Shown: piece after piece, positions 20,231 through 35,246 of the stretch
How the letters are laid out: each line of letters opens with the position of its first letter
How positions within the stretch are numbered: the first letter of the stretch is position 1
From: Candidatus Woesebacteria bacterium
Lineage (GTDB): Bacteria; Patescibacteriota; Microgenomatia; UBA8517
Assembly (NCBI GenBank): GCA_020060845.1
Contig: JAGUZK010000060.1
Span: 1-59,159 of the forward strand
Reading direction: 5' to 3'
Length of the DNA stretch: 59,159 nt
The notes under the pieces: generated by a model
Databases searched by the model: none
Seen by the model: the letters and a program-made list of their open reading frames with translations, nothing else
Told to the model about the DNA's origin: nothing
Position numbers and translations under genes: made by a program

Positions 20231-20310
20231 AAAAAACCCCGCTTTTGCGGGGGTTAAAACTTTTTCTTGGTCCAGCAAAGCTTTAACTCCCGCTTAGGCG
20301 AGAGTAAAGC
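20231..20310 (-). promoter_or_regulatory. Leader-peptide attenuator of pheST (alternative hairpins plus intrinsic terminator)
   Basis: Hairpin 1:2 GCTTTACTCTCGC/GCGGGAGTTAAAGC (20280-20310); 2:3 GCGGGAGTTAAA x TTTAACCCCCGC (11/12 pairs); terminator CCCCGC-AAAA-GCGGGG-TTTTTT (20231-20252). Confidence 0.8.
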
Positions 20311-20338
20311 CAAAACTGTTTACTTCATTTGTTTGCAT
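20294..20338 (-). CDS. Putative Phe leader peptide MQTNEVNSFGFTLA*
   Basis: ATG..TAA ORF with two Phe codons at the 5' edge of hairpin 1:2; stop codon in the hairpin loop. Confidence 0.65.
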   Translation of the reverse strand: MQTNEVNSFGFTLA

Positions 20339-20359
20339 GACAATTTTGTTGATTTTATA

Positions 20360-20701
20360 TTATTTAGTAGTTTTGTCAACGATTTTTTTGAAGTCTTCAG
20401 GGTATTTAACCGCTATCTCTGAGAGTATTTTTCTGTCAAGTAGAATATTTTTTTCTCTTAGATTTTTAATGAATTTTGAATACGTTTGGCCAAGCTCCCG
20501 AAGGGCTGCATTAAGGCGAATTATCCAAAGCCTCCTTAGATTTCTCTTCCTTTGTTTTCTGCCAATATATGCATATTGCCCAGCGTGAAGGATAGCTTCT
20601 TTCCCGGCTTTTATTCTGCGTCGTCTAGCCTGCCTATAACCTTTAGTTGCTTTTCTTATTTTCTTGTGCTTTTTGGTTGTGATTGATTTTACTCTTGCCA
20701 T
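20360..20701 (-). CDS. rplT: 50S ribosomal protein L20
   Basis: MARVKSITTKKHKKIRKATKGYRQARRRRIKAGKEAILHAGQYAYIGRKQRKR. Confidence 0.97.
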   Translation of the reverse strand: MARVKSITTKKHKKIRKATKGYRQARRRRIKAGKEAILHAGQYAYIGRKQRKRNLRRLWIIRLNAALRELGQTYSKFIKNLREKNILLDRKILSEIAVKYPEDFKKIVDKTTK

Positions 20702-32575: not shown

Positions 32576-32998
32576 TTATTTTGCTAGTGCAATTAGGATT
32601 GCACCTATGGTCATTAATATAGAGCCAAAAGCTATTTGAAAGTTAATTTTTTCCTTTAGAATTAACCCAGCAAAGATGATTGTCAAAACAAGGCTCAGCT
32701 TATCTATTGGTGCAACTTTACTTGCCTCCCCTATCTTTAATGCATAAAAATAGAAAAGCCAGGAGAGTCCAGTTGCAACCCCAGAAAGAATTAAAAAAAT
32801 CCACGAATTTTTACTGACATTAGATAGACCCGTTTGTCCGTTTTGGAATAAAACTATCCCCCAAGTAAAAAAAAGGATAACTGTTGTTCTTATTGCGGTG
32901 GCCAAGTTGCTGTGTATGTCCTTTATTCCGATTTTGGCAAGAATCGAAGTTAACGCTGCAAATAAAGCCGATAAAAAAGCTGCAAGATACCAGCTCAT
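32576..32998 (-). CDS. EamA/DMT-family transporter, single 4-5 TM half
   Basis: LSALFAALTSILAKIGIKD..., YALKIGEASKVAPIDKLSLVLTIIFAGLILKEKI. Confidence 0.85.
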   Translation of the reverse strand: MSWYLAAFLSALFAALTSILAKIGIKDIHSNLATAIRTTVILFFTWGIVLFQNGQTGLSNVSKNSWIFLILSGVATGLSWLFYFYALKIGEASKVAPIDKLSLVLTIIFAGLILKEKINFQIAFGSILMTIGAILIALAK

Positions 32999-33045
32999 AT
33001 TTAGAGTGTAGCAGATTACCCTGGTCTTGGTAAATTAGTTTCCAT

Positions 33046-33096
33046 CCAAACCTGGTTTGGTCTAGCTTAACAAAGAAGGATATAGACCAAACCGGG
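33046..33096. repeat. Dispersed repeat copy C, extended to a 14-bp inverted repeat
   Basis: CCAAACCTGGTTTGGTCTAGCTTAACAAAGAAGGATATAGACCAAACCGGG. Confidence 0.6.
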
Positions 33097-33261
33097 AAGG
33101 AGCTCAGGAAAGAGCTAAAGGGCTCATTCCTTGGCGATATTCGGGAATGAAAGAGTGTCGATCATTCTACGTCAGACAATCACTCAAGTTTAGCCCCATA
33201 GATATACTCCGCTCTTGATATGACATATTTTTTAGCAAAAATGAAAATTATTTTCCCAGCT

Positions 33262-33287
33262 AAAAAACCTCTTCTTTTGGAAGAGGT
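33262..33287 (-). terminator. Intrinsic terminator of the BCAA leader
   Basis: CCTCTTC-CAAAA-GAAGAGG-TTTTTT on the minus strand. Confidence 0.88.
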
Positions 33288-33321
33288 CTGATGTAAATTA
33301 AATAAAAATTACCTCACCACA

Positions 33322-33378
33322 TCAGACCTCGCCCTTAAAAAGGACGAGACTAATGATAATGAGGTTTAGAGATTTCAT
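33322..33378 (-). CDS. Branched-chain amino acid leader peptide MKSLNLIIISLVLFKGEV*
   Basis: 18 codons, 9 of them Leu/Ile/Val; Leu-Val-Leu codons form arm 1 and stop codon lies in arm 2. Confidence 0.8.
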   Translation of the reverse strand: MKSLNLIIISLVLFKGEV

Positions 33379-33446
33379 GATATGAGGCATATTTTATAGG
33401 TATTAGATTTACCCTGTCAAGTATTGTTTATTGATTAGACAGAGAT

Positions 33447-34073
33447 TTATCCTGCCGACCTTGAAACAAAGTGTTCGCTTGAGAGAAGGTATTTTGCACC
33501 ATGTTTTTTGTAGTTTAATCCCCACATATTTTTCTTTGCTACTCTTTTATTTGCACTCCTCAGCCAGTTTGATGCGCTTTCAATTTTTATCTTGAACGAC
33601 TTTATGTATTCCAAAAGTTTCTTGAAAAAAGCTATATGATAGGGACCAGGTTCAGCTGGTGATTGGAAAGCTGCAATTTGAGTCTCTTTTGCGAGTTTTT
33701 TTAGTTTTTGGGTTGCAAGAATAGTTTCTTGTTGTAGCATCTTAAGCTGGACTCGTAGCTCGTTTGTCTTTCTTTCTGCAAGAATTCTTTCTTCCTCAAT
33801 GAGTGTCCTTTCGAAAAATAATTCTTTTTTAGCTTCACTTTTGCCCTGTTGTTTGGCTTGAAGAATTTCCTGTATTGATACGGATGTTCCCGGTTTAATT
33901 TCTCCCGAAGCGCCTTTGATATTAATACCAAGAAGTTGCTCTATGAAGTCACTTGTAATATTTGTAGCCTCGTCTTTAAGTTTCCCCACAGTATCTTTCC
34001 CTATGTTGTTTAAGGACTCAAGCGGGTTAGGGATTACTCCTGGTTGATTTGACTTTGTCTTTCCTTTTGCCAT
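33447..34073 (-). CDS. Hypothetical coiled-coil protein (DUF5660-like)
   Basis: Gln/Lys-rich helix; C-terminal KKHGAKYLLSSEHFVSRSAG. Confidence 0.7.
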   Translation of the reverse strand: MAKGKTKSNQPGVIPNPLESLNNIGKDTVGKLKDEATNITSDFIEQLLGINIKGASGEIKPGTSVSIQEILQAKQQGKSEAKKELFFERTLIEEERILAERKTNELRVQLKMLQQETILATQKLKKLAKETQIAAFQSPAEPGPYHIAFFKKLLEYIKSFKIKIESASNWLRSANKRVAKKNMWGLNYKKHGAKYLLSSEHFVSRSAG

Positions 34074-34165: not shown

Positions 34166-35032
34166 CTAAGAACCAACCAGCGAAACCAATTGATTTAAAG
34201 TTTTCCGTTTGATAAGAATAGATTCTACTAGCCTTCTTTTTTGTGGAGAATCAAATTCCTTTTGAAGACTGGGGTCTGAGTTGATGCTGATTTTTATTGC
34301 CTCATCAACCTCTTCGTTTGTGACAGAAATACCTTCTTGATGGGAGATTTTAGCAAGGATAAAGTCAAGAGTGATAGCTTGCTCTGCCTGTTTCTCGTAC
34401 TCTGATCTTATATCTTCAATTTTTTTGCCAATTGATGAAAGGTATGATTGTAGTGTGAGCCCTAGTCTGTCAACTTGTTCAAGAAGCCTCGACAAGCGGG
34501 CATCTACCTCTTCCTCTATTAACATCCTGGGAATTTTTACGTTTGAGGTTGATAAAAGAGCCGAAATCACTGCCTGCTCTTTTTGTTCGTATGTCTTGGG
34601 AGAGTCTTGATTGCTATCACCCGGCTTCCAAATCTTTGCAGTTGAGCCTTTGATAGCTGATTTATAATCTCCAAGTGGAAATTCGGGCATTTCTGCTGTA
34701 GTTGCAGTAATCTGCCAATCTTCTTGGTCATCTGCTTTTATTATATTAAATTTAGGATAGACAATCGGCTTTAAGTCTTCCTGCTCGATCGTTTTAGCAA
34801 AGTATTTTGGAAGTATTATCTGTAAAGCGTTTTCTATTAATGTTTGGTGCGGAATTTTCTCTATAACTTTTTCAATGGGGGCCATGCCCTTCCTAAAGCC
34901 TGCAATCTCAATTTCCTTGCCCAAATCCTCAGCTGCCTTTTTTTTGGCATCTTCAATCTCGGAATATGGGATTGTATAGGTTATTTGAATTGTCCCGTCA
35001 TCGCTTTTGGCTAAGGTATAGTTTTTATTCAT
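34166..35032 (-). CDS. tig: Trigger factor lacking the FKBP PPIase domain
   Basis: N-terminal ribosome-binding domain with EIAGFRKGMAPIEKVIEKIP; C-terminal helical domain; no PPIase insert. Confidence 0.88.
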   Translation of the reverse strand: MNKNYTLAKSDDGTIQITYTIPYSEIEDAKKKAAEDLGKEIEIAGFRKGMAPIEKVIEKIPHQTLIENALQIILPKYFAKTIEQEDLKPIVYPKFNIIKADDQEDWQITATTAEMPEFPLGDYKSAIKGSTAKIWKPGDSNQDSPKTYEQKEQAVISALLSTSNVKIPRMLIEEEVDARLSRLLEQVDRLGLTLQSYLSSIGKKIEDIRSEYEKQAEQAITLDFILAKISHQEGISVTNEEVDEAIKISINSDPSLQKEFDSPQKRRLVESILIKRKTLNQLVSLVGS

Positions 35033-35246
35033 CTTTAGACAGTTGATTATATCGATAAAGTACAAAGATATAAAGGGTTAAATATTTTTACACAAATTCC
35101 TTGTGAAAAGGTTAATCTCTAAAAGGATATCTGCTAGAAACATATCTTACTAGAATGGAGATTGCCCCCCCAATCATAAAAGAACACTCCTGGTGCAATC
35201 TTATGCTTATTTTGGGGCTTTTATTAAAGGAAACCCGCGGGGCATT

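Follow-up and report, generated by a model that had tools for sequence, protein, structure and literature searches.

Leader-peptide attenuation of the ilv/leu type is established in Proteobacteria, and the pheST attenuator of E. coli has a Phe-rich leader ahead of phenylalanyl-tRNA synthetase. Woesebacteria are a Microgenomates part of Patescibacteria/CPR. Outside Proteobacteria, candidate attenuators were predicted in Actinobacteria before trp, trpS, leuS and ilvB (PMC1262725); for Patescibacteria, a 2024 perspective described the regulation of cell cycle and life-stage differentiation as virtually unknown (PMC11665869), and no report on attenuation or leader peptides in CPR, Patescibacteria or Woesebacteria was found in the open-access literature. 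Here we describe a leader element in a stretch of 59,159 nucleotides (hereafter the window) from a Candidatus Woesebacteria genome of 855 kb (60 contigs, 94% complete), the PheS encoded there sharing 74% identity with its counterpart in the nearest named relative, Candidatus Woesebacteria bacterium GW2011_GWB1_38_8b. We consider it likely that this element is a ribosome-mediated attenuator that senses the charging of branched-chain tRNA, for one or more of Leu, Ile and Val, and that belongs to a lineage-wide set and is now orphaned or secondarily linked to a neighboring EamA gene.

All parts of the element lie on the minus strand. The leader promoter, scoring 11/12 in the promoter scan, has the -35 box TTGACA (33415-33420), which is combined either with TATAAA (33393-33398, 16-nt spacer) or with TAAAAT (33391-33396, 18-nt spacer) as a -10 box, whose end is separated by 12 nt from the ATG of the leader ORF MKSLNLIIISLVLFKGEV* (33322-33378). 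This ORF has 18 codons, nine of them for Leu, Ile or Val, and its UGA (33322-33324) falls inside arm 2. Folding assigns the 5′ side of a long 1:2 pause hairpin to arm 1 (33340-33364) and its 3′ side, for which covariation is also seen, to arm 2 (33312-33336). The segment GAGGTCTGATGT of arm 2 (33319-33330) forms 12 perfect pairs with arm 3, ACATCAGACCTC (33283-33294), giving a 2:3 antiterminator that is recognized by sequence, fold and covariation and overlaps the 5′ stem of the 3:4 intrinsic terminator CCTCTTC-CAAAA-GAAGAGG + T6 (33262-33286, within a terminator region of 33262-33289; fold -12.7 kcal/mol). Folding energy of the whole leader is -46.1 kcal/mol against -24.3 +/- 3.1 in dinucleotide shuffles (z -7.0; 0/200 shuffles), and the 1:2 region, the 2:3 hairpin and the terminator folded separately give z of -8.2, -4.8 and -3.9. 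The promoter, ORF and three helices marked on this strand by the initial annotation are all in place, as are its nine branched-chain codons and the stop within arm 2; the 2:3 stem and the terminator are as it described them, but the 1:2 stem proved much longer, extending over ~33312-33364. The element occurs in a single copy in its own genome and has no match in the plasmid collection searched. At the gathering score, Rfam models detected only the tRNA family in the window, with no match to a leader family (e.g., Leu_leader) or to the T-box riboswitch.

Relatives were surveyed for the same architecture. DNA search of 142 of them yielded a single clear homologue, in G015, which shares 75% identity across 103 nt; its leader is similar (MNYRVIIMVSVLLFKGGGLT*), its architecture is identical, and another gene lies downstream. 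The weak matches besides it were mainly short AT-rich or terminator pieces and were set aside. The first covariance model, built from the window and G015 sequences and encoding 1:2 plus 3:4, was run on 374 genomes of the class and found further leaders, and 16 matches were used for the second model (R2), which encodes 1:2 and 3:4 and leaves out 2:3. R2 has matches in 29/38 close relatives (E <= 0.1) and in 261/374 class genomes (E <= 0.02); being a generic model of hairpin plus terminator, it also picks up chance sequences among the weak matches, and therefore 88 matches were read one by one. Those located inside genes (L068, L075, L083) or devoid of 2:3 pairing (e.g., L147, L156, L166) were treated as chance or doubtful.

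Although helix 2:3 forms no part of R2, complementarity of arms 2 and 3 reached the level of <=5/100 shuffles in 63/81 matches and of <=1/100 in 44/81, the test being partly dependent on the search, since the models carry G-rich and C-rich signatures, although the shuffles preserve composition. Among the closest relatives, an alignment of the window with G015, G016 and G042 has 93.8% of the 2:3 cells paired, as compared to 33-50% if one arm is slid by 1-3 columns; double compensatory changes occur at 4/12 pairs, and the covariation score was reached by 3/500 shuffles. Judging from these sequence comparisons, the 2:3 antiterminator and the 3:4 terminator, which exclude each other, are both conserved. 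The covariance search that the initial annotation had proposed bore out the recurrence of 2:3 pairing and of branched-chain codons in relatives, but not the association with EamA. Its interpretation of the locus as an attenuator gains support from the leader ORF, 2:3 covariation, the terminator and the branched-chain codons common to the homologues.

Another common property concerns the beginning of the transcript. Among the 72 matches with ATG at the model start, 56 have a -10 box (>=5/6) ending 5-18 nt before this codon, with 8% expected under the null, and the box itself lies largely outside the modelled region. An SD-like motif was found in 1/72 family members, and the leader in the window has no Shine-Dalgarno sequence either. 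Transcription typically starts 6-8 nt after the -10 box, and this spacing, together with the close ATG, implies leader mRNAs with almost no 5′ UTR. The leader mRNA of the window is therefore probably almost leaderless, and those across the family apparently look leaderless as well.

The sense of the leader codons becomes readable when downstream genes are compared across the class. Branched-chain leaders of the same type as that in the window precede ileS (MKIFSLIQIVNLIIEA, G044) and the ilvE-ileS pair (MKSISLIQIVNLIVNGA, G026); leuA is preceded by MNKRILLLNLVLLLKE and MCKFTLLNLNELLLLGEAF, leuS by MKFLFSLLDLNLLLLEK, pheS by MKEAFIFTNFFFRIN, MRIMSFTSFFFKT and MILTIFSTNFFFRV, and thrS by MIRFLQTCCTTTILLREVT. 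Trp-containing leaders stand before trpS (MDMTNTYQQIKFSWWRHSK) and trpE (MKNKFTKSIWQSWHTLKQEDLL) at loci L160 (G064) and L187 (G358), and leaders with SSSS runs before serBA (L191 in G307, L200 in G249), where the gene behind the leader encodes a SerB-SerA fusion and a serC-like gene comes next. For 21 gene-leader pairs, taken from matches having a clear amino-acid gene at the first or near-first place and retaining lysS and metG leaders despite their poor fit, cognate residues make up on average 0.238 of the leader as compared to 0.092 +/- 0.021 after permutation (0/200,000). The pairs were compiled by eye, which may have introduced bias, and the test was also run with 19 pairs. NCBIfam supplied the names of most genes; lysS, two of pheS and the second member of the ilvE-ileS pair were assigned from sequence alone. 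Since half of the leader in the window sits in arm 1, part of its codon conservation may mirror pairing. A model-independent check revealed a Phe-rich leader with terminator at 7/30 pheS loci of the class and an Ile-rich leader at about 2/30 ileS loci, and so these attenuators are common but patchy. Small ORFs (~60-100 aa, some with CxxC) often lie immediately behind the attenuator, between it and the amino-acid gene (L267 before pheS; L098, G012; L100, G055; L103, G023).

The window itself contains a second attenuator of this kind, located before pheST on the minus strand (20231-20379) and recognized by covariance match, fold and sequence as a set of promoter, leader, hairpin and terminator. 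Its leader ORF, MQTNEVNSFGFTLA* (20294-20338, minus strand), has Phe codons, and the counterpart read from the sequence of Woesebacteria GWB1_38_8b (L267) is MSLNNTVKFFNFNLA*. One further candidate, with a His-containing leader MRHQKHMLNLIHLI, was observed in the same genome (L148, G000:C35:7539-7646). Apart from synthetase and biosynthetic genes, branched-chain leaders in the same family of genomes precede genes for a GCS2-like protein, M20/M19 peptidases, a PLP decarboxylase, a methyltransferase and large Pfam-less proteins, which may point to amino-acid- or peptide-derived metabolism. Several such operons (L091, L092, L095, L106, L154) resemble pathways for peptide-like metabolites. Separately, M20 peptidase genes at L081, L085, L089, L177 and L193 have related leaders (MSKYRLTTIKHRSFWGMD and variants) with His/Arg, Phe-Trp and few branched-chain codons.

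As the initial annotation had noted, the next gene on the strand encodes a 140-aa EamA-family half-size transporter (32576-32998, minus strand; PF00892, E 2e-23), the ATG of which, at 32998, is placed 263 nt past the T-run; no branched-chain operon lies downstream of the attenuator in the window. On the other side the element is flanked by a DUF5660 gene (33447-34073, minus strand) adjoined by the trigger factor gene tig (34166-35065), both assigned by domain match; looking for DUF5660 in named genomes gave no confirmed locus. The order tig-DUF5660-attenuator recurs in G012, G055, G023 (with a degenerate leader) and G035, and in G015 and G021 it is found with an M20 peptidase gene inserted. 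The genes after the attenuator in these syntenic relatives are often M20 peptidases, otherwise small ORFs or uncharacterised proteins. Neither M20 peptidase nor KARI (IlvC) has a match in the 94%-complete genome carrying the window, all 14 of the 14 control genomes being positive; the lack of KARI is consistent with the suggestion of the initial annotation that the host scavenges amino acids. A 19-codon ORF (33167-33226, minus strand) occupies the position where the regulated gene of relatives starts and may be a remnant; no homologue of it was found, and a search between the terminator and EamA for what is left of a lost target gave nothing convincing. The same interval contains a perfect 11-bp inverted repeat without a T-run, GGTTTGGTCTA/TAGACCAAACC (33054-33093).

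Coupling of branched-chain shortage to transport via readthrough across the 263-nt spacer, the target role that the initial annotation had given to EamA, appears unlikely to us. It would agree with the position of EamA as the next gene on the strand, with no second clear terminator found in between and with the intact state of the element; moreover, the usual target family, M20 peptidase, is missing from the genome, so that recruitment of a new partner would be possible. However, the eight EamA orthologues of relatives (60-76% identity; L032-L039) have neither attenuator nor terminator upstream (0/8), the slot after the attenuator is occupied variably in syntenic genomes, and most of the family members that were read have no more than about 20 nt between the terminator and the start of the regulated ORF. 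Moreover, EamA seems to possess a promoter of its own: TTTACC-18-TACACT (33005-33034, minus strand) ends 6 nt before its ATG, at the place where the orthologues have their -10 boxes. In 7/9 EamA genes, that of the window being included in the count, a -10 box of >=5/6 lies 2-8 nt upstream of ATG, as compared to 10.7% expected by chance, the box of the window scoring 4/6. EamA is thus probably not the ancestral or dedicated target, and the original downstream gene, in relatives often M20 peptidase or another amino-acid/peptide gene, appears to be gone here. With that gene apparently gone, the attenuator would be orphaned or merely secondarily linked to EamA; an orphan would be expected to decay, and the intactness of the element hints at a current target.

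Two other readings dispense with sensing of branched-chain amino acids. An ordinary terminator or stable small RNA, uncoupled from the ribosome and with an ORF present by chance, would need only the 1:2 hairpin and the terminator, which suffice for a stable short RNA, and would suit an element that looks orphaned; we hold it to be very improbable in view of the 2:3 covariation, the fraction of Leu/Ile/Val residues (0.46 in the leader frame, 0.31 and 0.13 in the remaining two) and the cognate leaders throughout the class. A leader of the erm/bmr/mef type sensing drugs or translation stress, where any stalled ribosome would free the antiterminator before a transporter gene, is brought to mind by the neighboring transporter and by known leader-peptide attenuators ahead of drug exporters, yet it seems hardly probable at all, as the class leaders fit their downstream genes in amino-acid specificity and the close homologues are not located ahead of transporters. 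Under the favored reading, attenuation by branched-chain tRNA charging, transcription from the promoter at 33391-33420 would yield a nearly leaderless RNA with the leader ORF as its first codons. With ample charged tRNA the ribosome would reach the UGA in arm 2, allowing the 3:4 terminator to form and the RNA to end near 33262, whereas under shortage it would stall at the Leu/Ile/Val codons (about codons 6-12) and occupy arm 1, so that arm 2 would pair with arm 3 and readthrough would follow; EamA would be transcribed from its own apparent promoter.

On a wider scale, the leaders collected here make it rather probable that a class-wide, previously unreported network of leaderless attenuators, covering at least six amino acids (Leu, Ile, Phe, Trp, Ser, Thr), serves as a main amino-acid sensor acting on genes for tRNA synthetases, biosynthesis and peptidases and on uncharacterised operons. 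A conserved sensor readable by its codons would directly indicate the amino acid to which a given operon responds, even where the function of that operon is unknown, and the attenuator could provide the few culturable Patescibacteria with a ready-made amino-acid-responsive switch.

Compared with known systems, the Phe codons and pheST target of the attenuator at 20231-20379, repeated in several relatives, are those of the E. coli pheST attenuator, but the sequence is unrelated, the start is apparently leaderless and a small ORF sometimes precedes pheS (L267). The Actinobacterial candidates also lie outside Proteobacteria and have leaders specific for an amino acid ahead of synthetase and biosynthesis genes, but they belong to another phylum, and their leuA elements are LEU pseudoknots and not 1:2/2:3/3:4 attenuators (PMC1262725). 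With the Proteobacterial ilvGMEDA, ilvBN and leuABCD leaders the element of the window shares branched-chain codons in a short ORF, the stop in arm 2, the 1:2/2:3/3:4 arrangement and the U-tract, but it is found outside Proteobacteria, lacks a downstream branched-chain operon, a match to Rfam leaders and a Shine-Dalgarno sequence, and has its ATG 12 nt after the -10 box. The apparently leaderless start is the feature of this family that departs most from the Proteobacterial scheme, and beginning leader-peptide translation at the extreme 5′ end of RNA, if true, would represent a new mode of ribosome-polymerase coupling extending textbook attenuation.
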